DNA of 38,882 nucleotides, from the IMG/VR virus record IMGVR_UViG_3300028840_001471, positions 1 through 38,882 of that record; one strand, written 5' to 3'. Positions 7,562 through 38,682 of the stretch are shown one piece after another (positions within the stretch are counted from its first letter, which is position 1; each line of letters begins with the position of its first letter). Below the pieces are notes generated by a model, which worked only from the letters and a program-made list of their open reading frames with translations, searched no databases and was not told the DNA's origin. Position numbers and translations under genes: made by a program. The stretch comes from a virus.

Positions 7562-7580
7562 GGTTTGCCCTCCGTAGGAT

Positions 7581-7616: not shown

Positions 7617-7889
7617 TTATATAGTATTACAAAGTAATTGAATAACTGCTTTATACATGTCTTTATTTATGTGCTCACAAAATCCATTAGTTGCATAAAA
7701 TTCACCGTCAATGTCATACACTTTACATAATGGATAATCCCAGCCGTCACTAATAACTTTCATGCAGCCTTTTCCGGCATGTCTCAACCTGAAATTATAA
7801 CCAAAAAGTTTAAACTCATTTTTTGAAACGTTTACCTTAACCGTAATTTCTTCGCCGCTCCAATCTGCTTTGTTGCATGTAATTTCCAT
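7617..7889 (-). CDS. hypothetical protein
   Basis: This 90-residue protein is the first gene after the control region at 7890-8155. The start ATG 7889 is chosen for the GGAGGG site 7 bases upstream; an ATG at 7904 overlaps that site. It contains several Cys residues (CNKADW, GKGCMK, FCEHINK, LLCNTI) and alternating beta and Gly-rich stretches. Function unknown; its position makes it a probable early gene. Confidence 0.7.
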   Translation of the reverse strand: MEITCNKADWSGEEITVKVNVSKNEFKLFGYNFRLRHAGKGCMKVISDGWDYPLCKVYDIDGEFYATNGFCEHINKDMYKAVIQLLCNTI

Positions 7890-8155
7890 AGTCTTGCCCT
7901 CCATGGTAAAAATGGTGACCAGCGCGGGGGCGCAAAGGGCAAGTTTGCGGAGTTCCCCCTTGCTGGCCGTGTGTTTAGTTTCGTGAAAGTGTTTTATAAC
8001 TTGCCCTTTGCTTTAATGTACGCCTATATAATGTATTAAAATTGAGCTTAAATGCAAATACTTTTTTTTAAAGAAATTGATTTTAAATGCAAATAGCGGG
8101 TTTTCGGCGTTCTAGGCGGGTATTTGTAGCTGATTTATTTTTGACTTACAGAAAT
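7890..8155 (-). promoter_or_regulatory. control region upstream of the early/replication operon
   Basis: About 265 bases with no gene lie between the late-operon terminator and the 90-residue gene. The region is AT-rich in its centre and carries two copies of a 22-base motif. On the minus strand TTGCAT (inside the lower copy) followed after 18 bases by CATTAT, next to TATATA, is a possible promoter. It also shares the short elements CTAGGCGGGTA (8112-8122) and TTTGACTTACA (8140-8150) with the region at 37621-37883. A leftward operon start here is expected because a terminator lies directly upstream; the exact promoter is uncertain. Confidence 0.55.
8039..8095 (-). repeat. tandem pair of a 22-base regulatory motif
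   Basis: Two copies, 8039-8060 and 8074-8095, start 35 bases apart. On the minus strand both begin TATTTGCATTTAA and end TCAATTT; they differ only at two central bases (GC against AA). A third copy matching 18 of 22 bases lies at 37806-37827, abutting a good promoter. The layout suggests an operator or activator site for a phage regulator. Confidence 0.65.
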
Positions 8156-8196
8156 AAAAAGGGCCTGTGCGCTTGGCCGACTTATCACACAGGCCC
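8156..8196 (-). terminator. strong rho-independent terminator of the late operon
   Basis: On the minus strand a 9-bp perfect stem, GGGCCTGTG with CACAGGCCC (8196-8188 and 8169-8161), is followed directly by TTTTT (8160-8156). It lies 27 bases after the stop of the last late gene and ends the run of structural and lysis genes. Confidence 0.85.
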
Positions 8197-8202
8197 CGGG
8201 CA

Positions 8203-8222
8203 GAGCATGGAAAACCATGCTC
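8203..8222 (-). repeat. perfect 8-bp hairpin at the late operon end
   Basis: GAGCATGG and CCATGCTC with a four-base loop begin one base after the stop codon of the last late gene, just before the terminator. It has no T-run of its own. It may protect the mRNA 3' end or help termination. Confidence 0.6.
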
Positions 8223-8444
8223 CTATTTTTCTTTACGCTTCGTTTCGCTCCATATAAAAACCATGCCTACAGCACAAAGGCCAAGGAATTTATAGCGGTC
8301 CATTTCTGATATAGCAAGATACGAAAGCGCTGCAATAACATAAACGCGCTTGCTGGTTACAGCTTTAAGCGCGTTTTCAGTGCTGCCGTAAAGCGTGGTA
8401 AGTACGCCTGTTACTTTGTCTTTAAAACTCTTTTTCTCTTCCAT
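8223..8444 (-). CDS. putative holin, two membrane segments
   Basis: This 73-residue protein has a textbook AAAGGAGG site before ATG 8444. It has a charged N-terminus of about 30 residues, then two hydrophobic segments (about 34-46 VYVIAALSYLAI and 52-65 FLGLCAVGMVFIW) split by a short charged turn, and a Lys/Arg-rich end. Size, topology and position as the last late gene fit a small holin. No endolysin gene is adjacent, so the call rests on topology and position only. Confidence 0.5.
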   Translation of the reverse strand: MEEKKSFKDKVTGVLTTLYGSTENALKAVTSKRVYVIAALSYLAISEMDRYKFLGLCAVGMVFIWSETKRKEK

Positions 8445-10183: not shown

Positions 10184-13100
10184 TTATTGATAAAGTGCAA
10201 CTACGTCAATATAAAAATCATGTGCCGCATTACCTGATACCGGGTGATTAAATCTTACTCTTACCTGTCCAGCACTTCCGCCTGTCCCTACGTAATTAGT
10301 ATATAATTCTCCCAAGAAAAAACTAAAATTAACAAAACTTGTACCGCTGTTACTAAATCCAGAATTAACATTATTAAATTTATCCCAGCTTGTACTATTC
10401 CAGTTATAAAGTTCTATATCTATGTTATGTGATGTACTCCCGTCATATTCACAGCGTATGTCTACCCATTGAAAGGCCGTAACGCTTGTAAAGTCAACTA
10501 TAAGCTGTATACCCGGAGTTGTAGCAGCTTCATTTATAGCGTATACATTTCCGTCATTAGCAGTTTGCAGATCAGCAACAACGTTAGAGCTTGTACCATT
10601 ATTAAGCGTTACAGAGTTTGCAGTATATTTATGCCATTTAATATGCCCCGTACCGGCACCCTGTCCAAATTCCAACGTACCAAGTATTTGAGCTATAACG
10701 CCCTGCTGTATTTCCAAGTCATGGTAAAAAGTTGCTTTATCACCAAGTATGCCAAGGTCCGTAGTAAGCTCAAATATTTTATTTCCACTTGCCCCACCAT
10801 AAAATTCTAATATATGAGGCAATCCGGCATTAGCTAGTATTTTTGCATCATGTACCCCTGAAGCGTCAAAAAATAAAGCCTTCCCTTTTTCTATTCCAAT
10901 ATCACCGGTAAAATATACGGTATTATTAAAAGTCAAATATGTACCCGAAACAATAAAGGTTAAATTATCCACTTCATACGTGGCAGCACCTACTACCATT
11001 TCATTTGTTTGTGTGGTAGTTGCTCCATAACCTAAAGCTATACTTTCGTCAAAATTCGCCTGTGTATATCTTCCTCCGATTGCTATTGACCTGTCACCAT
11101 CTGCGTTTACATTTCTTCCTATCGCAACCGAACCATTATATGCACTTGCAGCCCGTCCAATTACAATAGTATCTGGCTCACCATTTCCCGTAGCTAAACA
11201 TCCTATGACAACTGAATCATTATCAACTGTTGCGCCTTGCCCGATAACCACAGATTCTTCTGCAGTAGCATAAGCATCAACTCCAATAATTACATTATTT
11301 CCGCCAACCGAAACAGTATCGTATGCCCCATGACCAATTATAGTATCATTGCTATTTCCGTTATCAGTTGCACTAGACCCTAGTACAGTTGTATTATTTC
11401 CTATTGCACTTGCTCCACCTCCAAAAGCTTCCGATAAAGTGCCTGTGCCTGTAGGTCTTGCTGATACATTCCCGATAAATTGAACATTATTATTGAAAGT
11501 AAGATATGTACCAGACACAACAAATTTTAAATAGTCAATTTCATAAGTTGTGGCTCCAATTACCATTTCATTTGTTTGTGTGGTAGTTGCAGTCCTTCCA
11601 ATAGCTATACTTTCCTCAAAAGTTGCATTAGCTTCATAACCAATTGCTATTGAGCTTGTACCAGAAACTGCCAGCCTACTAATTGCAACTGAATAACTTC
11701 CTGCAAGTGTGGCGGTATAACCAATACAAATTGAATACCCATATGTACTCGGAGTTGCGTTTGCACCTATACATACATTACCGTTATTTCTATTTGAAAT
11801 ACTATCACCAATTACAACTGAATTTCCGAAAGTATTACTTGCACCACCGCCAATTACAACTGAATCATTTCCAGTAGTATATGCCCCGGCACCAAATACT
11901 GTGCCCTTTCTTCCAGTTGAATAAGCATTCCGACCGATTACAGTCATTAAAGATTCAGTTGTTGCCGGAGTTGCATATGCCCCATGACCGAAAACAGTTG
12001 AATAATCAGCTACCGCGCTTGCCCCACTTCCGAATGCTTCAGATTCTAAACCTGCCGTTCCCTGTCCGGCTGATATTGTACCGCTAAAATAATTTGGAAC
12101 ATCACCATTAGAGTAAAAACCGTAATTCCATCCTTGTGAGATATTCCCGTCAGCAAAATACTGATAAGCCGTTCCTACTTTGCTTGGGTCATTAAATGAG
12201 CCGCCAGACCAAATACCATAGTAATTATATGTAAACTGTCCACTTGCCCCTTGACTTATAGACGTGCGTATACCGTAAGAATGTGACCCACCGGAATTAA
12301 CAACACCATTACTGTATACTGACACGTGTAAGCCTTCAAGTGTACTTGTAAGGCTACCATTGTACTGAGTAGTTTCAATACGTAATCCTTTTTGACTTTC
12401 TAATGTTTCTATGCTCTGATTATACAAACACCCTATATAACCGCCATAAATTACGCTTGATGTGTCCCCGCCTGTTCCGGTATGGTAAATACGTTCATAC
12501 AATCCATAATAGCTTTGTCCTGCTATTGCTATATCACCTGTTTCGGAAATATCAGCAACGGCATTAACTGACCCTGCTACACTACCTACGTCTATAGTTA
12601 AAAAACTTGTAGTGCCGGTAATAATTATACCGCCATCAAAAGTAACAGGACCGCCAAAGCGTGAAGGGGCCGTACCGTCTTGATATATACACCAGTCTAT
12701 ATTTGAGTTTTCTTTATAGTAATGCATATAAGCAGTACCGCTAAAGGTCCCGTCTATATCCATTTCAGACCATAGCGCAAACGCGTCTCCTGTCATTGCT
12801 GCAGATGGTCCAAGATTTCTTACGAAAGTTTTACTACCGATCATGTCACCGCTTACGCCATTAGTTGTACTTGAATTTTGTACAATAATATTAACGCCTA
12901 TAAGGTCAGTAGTGGTACCATTGCTTACACTCGCAGTTACATAATCACCGTAAACGTAACCAAGCGTACCGCCGGCCTGATTAAGTGCTGCTGTTATCTG
13001 TGACCCAATAAAATAATCTGAAGCATCAGTGGCCCCGGCTGTTTTACTTGCGCTTATGGCAAGTGCTTTAAATGTATCTGTAGTGTCTATACTTGACGCT

Positions 13101-14980
13101 AAAACCTGCAAGCGCGTACTTGCATTTGGAACACCGCCTATACAGCTGTTTTCATAAATACCAAAACCGGTATTTTCTACAAGTACATAACCTGAAGTAG
13201 TGACAAATTCAAGCCAGTCTATTTCATAACCTGCAGAGCCTATTTTTAATTGGTGGTCTTTAGACGTAGTGGCCGCATAACCTAATGCTATAGAGTAAGC
13301 ACCTCCTGTAGCTTGTGCATCTTTACCTATAGCTATAGAGCCGGCACCGTTTGCGTCAGCCTGTGCACCTATAGCTATTGCATTATCCCCTTGACATGCA
13401 GTGCTAAAACCTATAGCTATAGTACGGTTACCAGTACCGGAATTTCCATTACCTATAAGAATACCTTGACGCCTTGAATATGTAATGTTAGTACCGATAA
13501 TTACATTACTAATGTCAGCAGACGCGCTAGAATTATAACCTATTACTGTATTATCTTGAGCGGCAGCACTAGAGCCGTTACCTATTACTGTACTGTTATT
13601 ACCTACAGCAGTAGCCCCAAGCCCGAAAGCTTCAGAGTTAGTGCCAGCTGTACCCTGCCCAGCTGTTACGGACCCTGTAAAATAACTTGTAAGATTATCT
13701 GCTATATATATAGCGTAATCCCATAATCCCTGCACCCAAATACCGTAACGCGTTCCTGAAGCTCCATTGCTGCTAGATGCATAATATGCGCCATATAGAT
13801 TAGTATATGTTCCTGTAAATTGAAAATTGTAATAATCACCAAATACGCTGCCTGTTACATTACCTGTACCGCCATCACTTAAATAATGATAATCAGAAGT
13901 AATACTCCCAGCTACAGCGCCGTTATTTGTAATTGTGTTATATGTGCCGTAAATCTGCTGCCAGCTTCCAGTAGCAGCTGCTTGAATCTGCTGAAAAAGC
14001 CCCCGGACCTGTGCGCCGCTTCCGCCTACACCTTGCCCGTTTGCAAATATATAATTTGAGAATCCCTCTACAGGACTATTAAATAGTTCTGCAAGATCAT
14101 CAACTATAATGTAGTTTTCTACTCCACGCATAGTACCGTTAAGCTGCGCCCCGGCAAAAGCCTGAAGCTTATTATATTCACCTATAAGGCTTAGTGTACT
14201 GTTCCCCATGTCATTATGCGCGCGCATATCATGCCAAGATCCAATAGCATAGCCCCAGCTATTAACCGCGTCTGCATAATCCCAGTAAGTTCTGTGTCCT
14301 ATAAAATCATCAGTTGTGCTAGACGCTCCTGCAGTTTTTGTTATGCTTATATCATAACCGGTAACACCGTTAACGCTGTCTAAGCCGGCACTATATAACT
14401 GAAAGCACGGCAGCAGTCCGCCTGTAGGTACTACCAGCTGCCACGTCTGCGTAAGAGTATGCCCGGAAAGTGCAAGCTCTAAATTGCTAAGCAATGCGTG
14501 ATCAGTCCCGGCACCGCCGCCCCCGGACCCGCCGCCCTCTGCTATATGGAAAGTCTCTGTGTCTTGGTCAAAACGTCCAAGGGTAATTTTAATGCCGGTT
14601 AAAGGCTCTGTAGTGGTCCACGCCCCGGCTACAGACTGAGAAAGGTAATAAGTCTTTGACGGGTCACCGCCCCAGCTGGTCTTTACCCAGTTACCAGCTT
14701 TAAGAAATCTACCTTGCAATCCTGCCGCAGTATCTTCTGTAAGAATAAAAACAATAACACAGTTAGCTATAGCGTCAGCCTGTGCTTTCTTGGCTTTTCC
14801 TGTGTTATCAAACGTATACCATTCACCCTCTACGCCGCCCTGTCCGCTTGCAATCTCTGCAGTAACCCAGCCGCCGGCATGGTCAGCTGTTCTGAAATTG
14901 TCGTTATAATCCTCTTGCGGATTATTCCCGGTACCTTCGGGTAGTTCGTACTGTGCTTGTGCTGTCTGATTGTCAGCCAT
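10184..14980 (-). CDS. long tail fibre with YadA-head-like repeats
   Basis: This is a 1,598-residue protein. Residues 1-145 form an N-terminal attachment part, followed by a GGGSGGGG hinge. The rest is Gly/Ser/Thr/Tyr-rich beta material. Three blocks, at about 440-580, 973-1165 and 1180-1345, carry the 14-residue head repeat of trimeric autotransporters (repeated IAIG, VVIG and TVIG turns). Each opens with a SEAFG element, and each ends with a connector of the (Y)E(I/V)D-L-F-V type. The C-terminal ~150 residues look like a jelly-roll-type receptor domain. In trimeric adhesins such repeats form a left-handed beta-roll, so a trimeric fibre is expected. It starts two bases after the tail-tip gene, in the usual place for a receptor-binding protein. 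Confidence 0.85.
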   Translation of the reverse strand: MADNQTAQAQYELPEGTGNNPQEDYNDNFRTADHAGGWVTAEIASGQGGVEGEWYTFDNTGKAKKAQADAIANCVIVFILTEDTAAGLQGRFLKAGNWVKTSWGGDPSKTYYLSQSVAGAWTTTEPLTGIKITLGRFDQDTETFHIAEGGGSGGGGAGTDHALLSNLELALSGHTLTQTWQLVVPTGGLLPCFQLYSAGLDSVNGVTGYDISITKTAGASSTTDDFIGHRTYWDYADAVNSWGYAIGSWHDMRAHNDMGNSTLSLIGEYNKLQAFAGAQLNGTMRGVENYIIVDDLAELFNSPVEGFSNYIFANGQGVGGSGAQVRGLFQQIQAAATGSWQQIYGTYNTITNNGAVAGSITSDYHYLSDGGTGNVTGSVFGDYYNFQFTGTYTNLYGAYYASSSNGASGTRYGIWVQGLWDYAIYIADNLTSYFTGSVTAGQGTAGTNSEAFGLGATAVGNNSTVIGNGSSAAAQDNTVIGYNSSASADISNVIIGTNITYSRRQGILIGNGNSGTGNRTIAIGFSTACQGDNAIAIGAQADANGAGSIAIGKDAQATGGAYSIALGYAATTSKDHQLKIGSAGYEIDWLEFVTTSGYVLVENTGFGIYENSCIGGVPNASTRLQVLASSIDTTDTFKALAISASKTAGATDASDYFIGSQITAALNQAGGTLGYVYGDYVTASVSNGTTTDLIGVNIIVQNSSTTNGVSGDMIGSKTFVRNLGPSAAMTGDAFALWSEMDIDGTFSGTAYMHYYKENSNIDWCIYQDGTAPSRFGGPVTFDGGIIITGTTSFLTIDVGSVAGSVNAVADISETGDIAIAGQSYYGLYERIYHTGTGGDTSSVIYGGYIGCLYNQSIETLESQKGLRIETTQYNGSLTSTLEGLHVSVYSNGVVNSGGSHSYGIRTSISQGASGQFTYNYYGIWSGGSFNDPSKVGTAYQYFADGNISQGWNYGFYSNGDVPNYFSGTISAGQGTAGLESEAFGSGASAVADYSTVFGHGAYATPATTESLMTVIGRNAYSTGRKGTVFGAGAYTTGNDSVVIGGGASNTFGNSVVIGDSISNRNNGNVCIGANATPSTYGYSICIGYTATLAGSYSVAISRLAVSGTSSIAIGYEANATFEESIAIGRTATTTQTNEMVIGATTYEIDYLKFVVSGTYLTFNNNVQFIGNVSARPTGTGTLSEAFGGGASAIGNNTTVLGSSATDNGNSNDTIIGHGAYDTVSVGGNNVIIGVDAYATAEESVVIGQGATVDNDSVVIGCLATGNGEPDTIVIGRAASAYNGSVAIGRNVNADGDRSIAIGGRYTQANFDESIALGYGATTTQTNEMVVGAATYEVDNLTFIVSGTYLTFNNTVYFTGDIGIEKGKALFFDASGVHDAKILANAGLPHILEFYGGASGNKIFELTTDLGILGDKATFYHDLEIQQGVIAQILGTLEFGQGAGTGHIKWHKYTANSVTLNNGTSSNVVADLQTANDGNVYAINEAATTPGIQLIVDFTSVTAFQWVDIRCEYDGSTSHNIDIELYNWNSTSWDKFNNVNSGFSNSGTSFVNFSFFLGELYTNYVGTGGSAGQVRVRFNHPVSGNAAHDFYIDVVALYQ
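10994..11590. repeat. 30-base identical in-frame repeat inside fibre gene
   Basis: The same 30 bases occur at 10994-11023 and 11561-11590, exactly 567 bases (189 codons) apart and in the same reading frame. They encode the TTQTNEMV segment that joins a head-repeat block to its connector. The neighbouring connector sequence is similar but not identical, which points to a duplicated module with fairly recent exchange. Confidence 0.8.
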
Positions 14981-33656: not shown

Positions 33657-34136
33657 CTAATTGTTTCTTATATACGTAGGAACAAAACTTTTTAATTTTC
33701 TATATTCACCATATAAGCTGCGCTCATAATCTGTATATTTTCGCAAACGATTCGCTTTGGCGTTTGGATTGCAATTTATTCTACTTTCCAAAAACTCCAT
33801 AACTAAAACAGCCTTTTCTTTTTTCTCTATGAGATACGGAAAAACTTGCGCCAAAAAACTAAAAACTTTCTTCTGTGAGCTTATACGCCAAACATACATT
33901 GTTTTATGTTTTCTCTTTGGCTTTTTTGTTTTCTTAACAACCTTTCCAACACCTACAATATCACAAAAACGCTTTAAAAGTTTTTTGTTTGAATTACCGA
34001 CTATAACATGCACCGTATAATATTCACGATAGCCTTTACCCGGATTCTTTCTGTTAGAATAATTAAAACTTATACAACCTTCGCCCTCAAACATACCAAC
34101 AACAAAACCTAAATTGAAACCAGTCATTTTATTCAT
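33657..34136 (-). CDS. LAGLIDADG homing endonuclease
   Basis: This 159-residue protein has one LAGLIDADG-type motif (FVVGMFEGEGCISF, about 11-24), the YYTVHVIVGNSNKKLLKRF strand-helix element and the GVGKVV turn of single-motif enzymes, which work as homodimers. It is basic throughout. The gene is visibly AT-richer than its neighbours and lies between the terminase small and large subunit genes, a frequent site of homing genes. GGAG lies about 12 bases before ATG 34136; ATG 34127 is a possible start too. It is probably a free-standing selfish element. Confidence 0.88.
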   Translation of the reverse strand: MNKMTGFNLGFVVGMFEGEGCISFNYSNRKNPGKGYREYYTVHVIVGNSNKKLLKRFCDIVGVGKVVKKTKKPKRKHKTMYVWRISSQKKVFSFLAQVFPYLIEKKEKAVLVMEFLESRINCNPNAKANRLRKYTDYERSLYGEYRKLKSFVPTYIRNN

Positions 34137-34161
34137 TATACTTTTGCTCCAATAGTCATCT

Positions 34162-34795
34162 TTATGTTTTTTTCTTTAATAATTTCTTTGATTTCCGGGG
34201 CGGTGCAGCTACCTTGCTTTTCGCGGTTAGTACAGTCTTTTTCTTCGTACCTGCTGCCAGTGCTGCAGAGGGCGCGCCTCCGTCCGGGGCCATGAATTGA
34301 GCCAGCGGCGCAAGCAAGCGCTCCAAAGTTTCTCGGGCTATTTCCGCTTTGGTCTGTGCGTCCGCTTCCACGTCCCGGGCGTCTTCCCTGAATCCGCAAC
34401 GGCTCTTCAGCAGAAAAATCACCATAGCAGTATTTTTCTTTTTTGTGGCCATTTCGTATGCTGTCCCTATCAGTTCCTTTTGGCCGGCAGCTAGGCCCTC
34501 TTCGTACGCCTTCTTGCAATTCTCGTTTGTCTCTATTAGCTCCTTGAATTGCTTGTGCGTCAGACCTAGACGCTGTGCTATGATTTTGTCGGGGACTAAG
34601 CACGCCGTTAACTCCGTGAGTATTTCGCGGCGGTGTTTTAAAAGTGGTTCCTCCGGGCGTCCACGCCCACGCTTTTTTGTTTTTCTTTTGCGCGTGGTTT
34701 TCTTTTTTGCCGGGGTTTTCTTTTGTGCTGTTTTGGGCCCGGGGGGTACTGCCTGCTTTCTTTGGGCTTGTTTGCTTTCCGTAGCCGTCAGCCAT
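34162..34795 (-). CDS. terS: terminase small subunit, needs +1 frame change
   Basis: From ATG 34795 (AAAGGGGG just upstream) the frame reads MADGYGKQTSPKKAGSTP and then loses sense. The +1 frame carries the clear protein: a Lys/Arg-rich leader (KKRGRGRPEEP), a helix-turn-helix (IIAQRLGLTHKQFKELIE), AYEEGLAAGQKELIGTAYEM, then MVIFLLKSRCGFRED and a Lys-rich tail ending at 34162. This is the layout of phage terminase small subunits, and the next packaging gene is terL. The +1 frame has no start codon after its own TAA next to the ATG. Joining the frames at the run of six C (34746-34741) gives about 210 residues. Either +1 ribosomal slippage or a one-base insertion (biological or sequencing error) explains it. 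Confidence 0.75.
34741..34746 (-). promoter_or_regulatory. C6 tract, presumed site of terS frame change
   Basis: In the zero frame the minus strand reads AGT ACC CCC CGG. Skipping one C restores the terminase frame as ACC CCC GGG CCC. CCC-containing +1 shift sites are known in phages such as Listeria PSA, but there a stop codon follows, which is absent here. Confidence 0.5.
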
Positions 34796-34917: not shown

Positions 34918-35262
34918 TCAATTTTCACAGGGATAATCAATTCCCTTGTTTCTTGCGTCTATTTTAGTAATCCCGTGCATTTTAAAAGATTTTCGTACTT
35001 TGCTGGCACTTACCCCTAAAGCCTTGGCAATATCTGCCCAGCTGTACCCCCTGCGGTATTTCATAAGCACAGTTTTCGTAAGGTGAATAACAGGCCGCCC
35101 CCGGCTTGGCACTTTAACACCGAAGTGCTGCAGAGCCCGGGAAAGAGTACCAAAGGAACAGCCCAAAGCCTTTGCCGCTTGGTTTAAATTACTGAAAGCC
35201 TTAACTGCGTCTGCAATTTCTTTGCGCGTAAAATCATGCTTATAACCCCTGTAGTTTTCCAT
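34918..35262 (-). CDS. double helix-turn-helix DNA-binding protein
   Basis: This 114-residue protein holds two helix-turn-helix units: about 27-48 (LNQAAKALGCSFGTLSRALQ) and 71-98 (YSWADIAKALGVSASKVRKS), joined by a basic SRGRP stretch. Its place directly before the AT-rich gap and terS suggests it may regulate late genes or act at the packaging site. A second terminase-small-like role is less likely because a good terS follows. The start overlaps the preceding stop (TAATG). Confidence 0.75.
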   Translation of the reverse strand: MENYRGYKHDFTRKEIADAVKAFSNLNQAAKALGCSFGTLSRALQHFGVKVPSRGRPVIHLTKTVLMKYRRGYSWADIAKALGVSASKVRKSFKMHGITKIDARNKGIDYPCEN

Positions 35263-37365: not shown

Positions 37366-37739
37366 GGTAAAACCTCCTGTTTTTTTTGTGTTTCAGGGCA
37401 AGCAAAGGCGCTGTGCCCCCGCATTTTGTAAATCAAAAAGTAGAAAAATTGCTACTTTTCATAAATCCTTTAAGGAAGGACCCTTAGGACTTGCAAAAAG
37501 TGCTAATGTTAAAAATTCGTGCAGTATAAGCCGATTAGCACGCCTGTACGGCCTGGTACGCCTATCCCCGTCGCTCTAAATATACCCTCTATATATACTA
37601 TTATAGAAAGACATTATTATTTATTACGGTAGGTAAAGTATGCCTAGGCGGGTAAGGCGTTCCTTTTAGTACCATACTATGCGAATTTGAAGGAATTTAG
37701 GCATTGACCTAGTGCAATTTTGGGCCATTTCCTGAGCCT

Positions 37740-37769
37740 AGTATAGCCTTAACCCCCTCAAAAAATCAA
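37740..37769 (-). promoter_or_regulatory. candidate leftward promoter
   Basis: TTGATT (37769-37764), an 18-base spacer, and TATACT (37745-37740) on the minus strand. It lies 39 bases downstream of a stronger candidate, giving a possible tandem pair. Confidence 0.4.
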
Positions 37770-37778
37770 AAACGCGTT

Positions 37779-37807
37779 TCTATAATTGCCAAAAACAGCA
37801 CTTTCAA
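37779..37807 (-). promoter_or_regulatory. strong candidate leftward sigma70-type promoter
   Basis: TTGAAA (37807-37802), exactly 17 bases, then TATAGA (37784-37779) on the minus strand: nine or ten of twelve consensus positions with ideal spacing. The 22-base motif copy directly abuts and slightly overlaps the -35 hexamer, suggesting regulation by a factor bound there. Confidence 0.6.
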
Positions 37808-37827
37808 TTTGAGCTTTTATGCAGATA
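37806..37827 (-). repeat. third copy of the 22-base regulatory motif
   Basis: It matches 18 of 22 bases of the copy at 8039-8060. On the minus strand it begins TATCTGCATAAAAGCTCAAA and its last two bases fall in the -35 hexamer of the promoter at 37779-37807. Confidence 0.6.
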
Positions 37828-37887
37828 CAACGTCAATTTTCAAAGATCAGGCGTAACAGGTCCCAAGGTCAGTTTGACTTACAAAAG

Positions 37888-38352
37888 TCACCCTATTTTT
37901 ACTATTTTTATTGACTGCCCGGATATGCCCACTTCTATAACTTCATAGGTGCCGCCGTGGTAGTCCGTGTACTCTATTTTCTGGCCCACGCGTATAACGG
38001 TTTCCGGGGGCTGCAAGAGCGTGTCATATTGGACGAAAGGCGCCCCGGGTTCACGCTGCCGGAAAACATCTATTTTGACCCAGCCGGCAGCAAGCGCGCG
38101 CCGGTTAACCTCATTGCTGCCAGTGAGCATTTGGCAAGCCGTAGCGCTGGTAAGGGCCACAGCAACGTCAAGGGCGTTCTCAGCGTCTTCAAGAGTCCAT
38201 ATGCGCTTGCTGCAATATAGACGCTTGTACTCAACATAGCAGTCAAGGGCACCGTCACAGAATACATTTTCAACATTAAAATATCGGCAGTCCCAGCAGT
38301 ACAGGCCTGTACACTTGGAAAACTGCTTTACTTTTTCCCGTTCAGTGATCAT
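37888..38352 (-). CDS. Cys-rich hypothetical protein
   Basis: This 154-residue protein from ATG 38352 (AAGGGG 6-7 bases upstream) has six Cys in the first 47 residues (14, 19, 22, 32, 38, 47), suggesting a metal site, then a helical middle and a beta-rich C-terminus (VIRVGQKIEYTDYHGGTYEV) like a small barrel. Longer starts at 38391 or 38382 lack a good site. It is followed by the 522-base control region, so it may end its operon. Function unknown. Confidence 0.7.
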   Translation of the reverse strand: MITEREKVKQFSKCTGLYCWDCRYFNVENVFCDGALDCYVEYKRLYCSKRIWTLEDAENALDVAVALTSATACQMLTGSNEVNRRALAAGWVKIDVFRQREPGAPFVQYDTLLQPPETVIRVGQKIEYTDYHGGTYEVIEVGISGQSIKIVKIG

Positions 38353-38413
38353 ATTAACCCCTTTCTTTAAATTTACGTTCATTCCATACAAGCTTTAGTG
38401 CCTCTTCTATTTT

Positions 38414-38593: not shown

Positions 38594-38682
38594 TATTTAC
38601 CCCCAATTTTATTTGAAACTTTCCTGCCGCATTTTTTACAGTATAATGCTTTTTCTTTAAGCTCAATTATCTCCCGTTCCAT
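38593..38682 (-). CDS. 29-residue Cys-knuckle peptide
   Basis: ATG 38682 has AGGGG 8 bases upstream, and the frame fits exactly between its neighbours: it overlaps the upstream gene by 16 bases and its TAA overlaps the next ATG. The peptide is Lys/Glu-rich with one YCKKCG knuckle. Tight fit and ribosome site argue that it is translated; it might serve mainly as a coupling ORF. Confidence 0.55.
   Translation of the reverse strand: MEREIIELKEKALYCKKCGRKVSNKIGGK

Follow-up and report, generated by a model that had tools for sequence, protein, structure and literature searches.

Phage operators at early or replication promoters, such as those of the lambdoid phages, are read by a dedicated DNA-binding regulator. 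The UP-element consensus consists of A/T tracts at about -40 to -60 of a promoter, and at the RNA level the put RNA of HK022 is the precedent for a processive antitermination element. The closest described RNA found for the leader analysed here is the translational operator of T4 and RB69 gene 32, a pseudoknot in the 5′ leader (PMC535899). The gene 32 leaders of T4 and RB69 have diverged in sequence and retain similar predicted structures, and in T4 the pseudoknot forms the 5′ terminal component and measures about 28 nt (PMC535899).

Here we describe a phage locus at which a 22-base motif, a putative operator, lies at the promoter of a replication operon whose transcript would begin with a pseudoknot leader, a probable second, translational level of control. 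We assign this combined reading a probability of roughly 0.55. The motif had been noticed in an earlier note, and that observation is confirmed; the leader RNA is the less expected and more novel part. The locus provides a testable control point, at the DNA level and possibly also at the RNA level, for the replication genes of uncultured phages without a close cultured match.

The window, that is, the whole stretch of DNA analysed, is a virus record of 38,882 bases in which all assigned genes point leftward. Terminase, portal and head genes, followed by others down to small membrane-type proteins, occupy about 33.4 to 8.2 kb, and beyond the gap at 7905-8222 lies a replication block encoding an exonuclease, a Sak4-like annealing protein and a helicase (PHROGs, Pfam). 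As the earlier note had it, 7905-8222 and 37366-37887 (control regions 1 and 2) are the only gaps of more than 250 bases under our choice of open reading frames, and leftward genes follow both.

The relatives compared were G002, which is 79% identical and both covers and aligns through control region 1, and the more distant G004, G010 and G011, with terminases 65-68% identical. A contig from the same metagenome as G002 (L050) overlaps the left end of the window and runs on with a Prim-Pol gene, with a homologue of the 37888-38391 protein at its own end. Because L050 extends the left end to this homologue, the window probably lacks about 4.5 kb joining its two ends (L050 7457-12088), including the Prim-Pol gene. 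The window ends, 1 and 38882, probably reflect a linear cut of a circularly permuted genome. An HNH endonuclease gene at 33657-34136, near the large terminase gene and adjoined by a doubtful open reading frame (34136-34795), is possibly an inserted homing endonuclease. A radical SAM/DUF5131-like protein is encoded at 1060-1779 within the replication block, and a relative of it also occurs in G004. The control-region DNA had no match in phage records, and no close cultured relative was found by searching with terminase or exonuclease; MW202621 was rejected as a relative on account of its different gene layout. Scans queried with the first-gene protein of the replication operon and with the 37888-38391 protein found nothing, a search of genome contigs with the 10184-14980 protein and the exonuclease alignment gave no match, and no relative spanning control region 2 was found.

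The three motif copies that the earlier note had placed in these gaps were recovered with the similarity it had reported:

8039-8060: motif copy 1, AAATTGAGCTTAAATGCAAATA, overlapping the candidate -35 of the leader promoter.
8074-8095: motif copy 2, matching copy 1 at 20/22 and lying 35 bp further upstream in the transcription direction; 16/22 aligned identity in G002.
37806-37827: motif copy 3, 18/22 to copy 1, sharing 2 bases with a candidate promoter's -35 in control region 2.

Copies 2 and 3 agree at 16 of 22 bases. Confinement of the copies to the intergenic control regions, named in the earlier note as support, also holds, the next best sites in the window on either strand reaching 16/22 (at 38648) and then 15/22. 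A match as good as that between 8039 and 8074 was reached by none of 1000 dinucleotide shuffles of the region, the best shuffle giving 18/22. The evidence for the third copy is modest and weaker than that for this pair: a match of at least 18/22 between the two regions arises in 25 of 1000 shuffles when any pair of 22-mers is allowed, and in 1 of 1000 when only the two known copies serve as the query.

In G002, copy 1 is a clear footprint because 21 of its 22 bases are kept while the downstream flank is only 43% identical, conservation in relatives being a further sign of support named in the earlier note. The stretch between leader and motif, which would hold the -10 and the transcription start, is identical at 12/28 positions (43%), and identity at 8125-8154 is 17/53 (32%). 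G002 also carries an inverted motif copy, at L048:1687. When a degenerate motif pattern was run against viral contigs, eight stretches matched, with two hits only in G002; the other seven were taken as chance, and among them only L054 has distant protein matches to the window.

A related site, TGATCTTTTTWGA, occupies the corresponding place in G004, G010 and G011, just upstream of the promoter -35 (TTGACA or TGGACA). G010 has two such sites 22 bp apart, G004 has one with a weaker neighbour 21 bp away, and G011 has one with TTGATC 21 bp upstream. A matrix trained without the phage under test ranked these sites first and third in G010, first in G011 and second in G004 within their own records, which is support rather than proof because there were so few training sites; the matrix scan of these records gave no clear second site in G004, G010 or G011. 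Outside G002 the motif sequence drifts strongly, and its orientation differs between the window and the relatives. Two candidate promoters accompany the motif in the window:

8030-8058, minus strand: candidate leader promoter, -35 TTTGCA (8058-8053, in copy 1), 17 bp, -10 TACATT (8035-8030), by consensus match only (8/12).
37779-37807, minus strand: candidate promoter TTGAAA-17-TATAGA beside copy 3, 9/12, not unique.

The motif most likely serves as an operator at which a sequence-specific DNA-binding protein of phage or host regulates the replication operon. This protein would bind copy 1, probably together with copy 2, and in the window would most simply block RNA polymerase, because the candidate -35 and some of the spacer lie within copy 1. 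In the distant relatives, where the site lies just upstream of a near-consensus -35, activation would be equally possible. The earlier proposal of a dedicated regulator binding here is partly supported, by copies only in control regions, the G002 footprint and the sites beside the G004, G010 and G011 promoters, all of which concern the site and not the regulator.

Against an operator, the motif is AT-rich and occupies the UP-element position in the relatives. It might be an A/T-rich UP element upstream of the -35, bound by the alpha CTD of host RNA polymerase with no dedicated regulator, as its T-tract/A-tract composition and its place directly upstream of a near-consensus -35 in G004, G010 and G011 would suggest. 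We consider this unlikely, however, as G/C positions (TTGA, GCTT, TGCA) are retained, 21/22 in G002 and also between copies, the distance from copy 2 down to the predicted start is ~70 bp or more, and copy 1 in the window overlaps the -35 rather than preceding it. Alternatively, TTTGCA could be the -35 of each of copies 1 and 2, making them alternative core promoters and their similarity a promoter duplication. They can indeed be read as TTTGCA-17-TACATT (copy 1) and TTTGCA-17-TAAAAA (copy 2), and the G002 equivalent of the leader promoter as TTTGCA-16-TATAAT, yet copy 3 has no -10 at such a spacing, all 22 bases and not merely a hexamer are conserved, and a separate -35 lies downstream of the site in G004, G010 and G011, all of which renders duplicated promoters quite improbable. 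Direct repeats in an AT-rich gap beside genes for exonuclease, annealing protein, helicase and (in L050) Prim-Pol could also be iterons or part of a replication origin rather than transcription operators. We give this very little credence, because there are merely two or three copies, the sites track the promoter in five phages, and GC skew declines steadily across the window without a turning point, although the one-strand gene layout would mask one.

The two control regions also share shorter elements:

8112-8122: shared element CTAGGCGGGTA, within 8106-8124, of which 18/19 bases are kept in G002.
37644-37654: control region 2 copy of shared element CTAGGCGGGTA; the window has only these two.
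8140-8150, also 37873-37883: shared 11-mer TTTGACTTACA, not kept in G002.
8018-8027, also 37556-37565: shared 10-mer GTACGCCTAT, not kept in G002.

All three are common to both regions in the same orientation, and equally many same-strand matches occurred in 10 of 2000 shuffles for 11-mers and 14 of 2000 for 10-mers. The earlier note had proposed that one regulator coordinates two gene blocks 30 kb apart, copy 3 abutting the -35 of the best promoter in the window. Copy 3 does overlap a candidate -35 by 2 bases, but the ranking fails: fourteen other places reach 10/12 against 9/12 for TTGAAA-17-TATAGA, and several further 9/12 matches lie in the same gap. Coordination itself is weakly supported by the third copy (p ~0.001-0.025) and the shared 10-11-mers; copy 3 may be a second target of the same regulator. 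The odds fall somewhat short of even that the copy at 37806 is instead a chance match and that the two blocks are not co-regulated through the motif. The frequency of 18/22 matches between the two gaps in shuffles (25/1000) and the lack of a clear second site in the distant relatives argue for chance, whereas the 1/1000 obtained against the two known copies and the further same-orientation 10-11-mers argue against it.

Control region 2 also contains an AT-rich hairpin (37436-37459) upstream of the 36901-37365 gene, possibly an attenuator, and a palindrome, TGACTT-ACAA-AAGTCA (37874-37889), that overlaps the shared 11-mer where the 37888-38391 gene ends. Control region 1 contains a likely terminator:

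8161-8196, minus strand: likely intrinsic terminator for the structural/lysis operon upstream, GGGCCTGTG..CACAGGCCC followed by a T-rich stretch.

The stretch around it (8155-8200) is identical at 43/46 positions in G002; the terminator scan did not flag it, its loop exceeding the loop limit of the scan.

One protein had been named earlier as a candidate for binding the motif:

34918-35262, minus strand: protein containing two HTH segments that may be a regulator or the small terminase subunit.

Relatives 38-45% identical occur in G004, G010 and G011, and because in each of the four phages the gene is found close to that for the large terminase, a packaging role as small terminase subunit would be as likely for this protein as a regulatory one. 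Its predicted structure (pLDDT 76) had no significant match among solved structures, and the best sequence match of its profile was 8vd6, ‘CAP repeat’.

The minus strand downstream of the putative operator specifies, at 7885-8011, a 5′ leader in which two helices cross, a pseudoknot layout:

7998-8011, minus strand: helix 1 5′ arm (arm A), GCAAAGGGCAAGUU, close to where the predicted transcript begins; 13/14 in G002.
7962-7968, minus strand: helix 2 5′ arm, GGCCAGC.
7932-7945, minus strand: helix 1 3′ arm (arm B), AACUUGCCCUUUGC, inside the helix-2 loop.
7917-7923, minus strand: helix 2 3′ arm, GCUGGUC.

GCAAAGGGCAAGUU pairs with AACUUGCCCUUUGC 52 nt later, and the helices cross because arm B sits in the loop of the hairpin closed by GGCCAGC/GCUGGUC. 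Compared with G002, the helix-2 block is identical at 50/52 positions and leader loop L1 at 13/30 (43%). The same two-helix layout recurs at the same place in five phages (the window, G002, G004, G010 and G011), with exact inverted repeats of 14, 12, 13, 13 and 11 nt, respectively, each accompanied by a crossing helix; for each of the five leaders, repeat and crossing helix occurred together in 0 of 2000 shuffles. Outside the window/G002 pair the arm sequences are unrelated (4-7 matches over 11-13 positions). The predicted fold is well beyond shuffles in G004 (z -3.7), G010 (z -3.6) and G011 (z -3.9), moderately better than shuffles in the window (z -1.6) and not clearly so in G002 (z -0.6), by programs that do not model pseudoknots.

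Rfam gave no hit, either with the window at the gathering threshold or with 7880-8230 at E<=5, and a scan of G006, G012 and G013 for the pseudoknot layout yielded no convincing further leader. A possible sixth leader with this layout is found at L067 3519-3624, in a phage with a 37%-identical exonuclease; the candidate is borderline (6/1000 on the repeat) and lies inside open frames. In several phages an open frame runs through the leader, part of which may therefore be coding. A leader peptide was rejected as an explanation: all of the five phages except the window have a start codon after or in arm A, and by eye the peptides are unlike one another. A role in -1 frameshifting was set aside, since the predicted transcript starts only shortly upstream of the knot.

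Two further features connect the leader to the operon:

7617-7904, minus strand: opening gene of the replication operon, with an internal ATG at 7889 as the probable, well-spaced start.
7893-7900, minus strand: AGGGCAAG at the ribosome-binding site of the first gene, 8 nt complementary to arm B.

Complementarity between loop and ribosome-binding site extends over 8, 8, 7 and 6 nt in four of the five phages; in G011 the loop has no complement to the ribosome-binding site used, and the first gene begins 120 nt downstream of arm B. We infer that the transcript would start with the leader and that in vivo its 5′ end and the hairpin loop would form a helix crossing the hairpin's own, the same loop pairing alternatively with the ribosome-binding site of the first gene. 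Because the loop can pair in this way, the leader is probably a second, translational level of control. The extended ribosome-binding stretch GGAGGGCAAGACCATG or close variants start several post-leader genes (L048 of G002 at 291, 816 and 1522, minus strand; window 7899), and window position 7570 has the variant GGAGGGCAAACCATG; since several genes carry such a stretch, pairing of the loop need not in principle be limited to one ribosome-binding site.

Instead of being a translational switch, the leader might act in put-like processive antitermination or might stabilise the operon transcript at its 5′ end. Its position close to the start of a long operon transcript and the retention of layout rather than sequence would accord with either, but an antiterminator would not need arm B to complement the ribosome-binding site of the first gene, as it does in four of the five phages, and we regard this explanation as serious yet rather unlikely. 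Going further, the putative translational switch may represent a class of phage regulatory RNA not yet described, in which the loop of a 5′ pseudoknot pairs either with the 5′ end of the transcript or with the ribosome-binding site of the replication operon, and in which the layout is kept although each helix differs in sequence from phage to phage; the regulator of the operator above it would also read a promoter 30 kb away. That full picture is doubtful. The locus provides a small phage RNA that retains its fold as its sequence changes.

The window resembles lambdoid-type operators in having repeated, near-identical sites of ~20 bp over or next to the -35 that starts the replication operon, and possibly a second site at another promoter; unlike them, its site was matched to no described operator, and spacing and orientation vary among related phages. 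The likeness to an UP element lies in the A/T-rich tract directly upstream of the -35 in G004, G010 and G011, whereas the conserved G/C positions, the further upstream reach of the tandem copies and the overlapped -35 in the window set it apart. The T4 gene 32 leader precedes the gene for the single-stranded-DNA-binding repressor (SSB) that binds it; by contrast, nothing marks the first gene of the window operon as an SSB gene, because it has no PHROGs or Pfam match, and the window helices are longer, span about 95 nt and enclose a loop that can pair with the ribosome-binding site. Both leaders stand at replication functions, gene 32 being a replication gene and the window leader heading a replication operon. 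As in the T4/RB69 gene 32 operator, the crossing helices lie in the 5′ leader, 5′ of the ribosome-binding site, and their layout is kept across diverged sequences.
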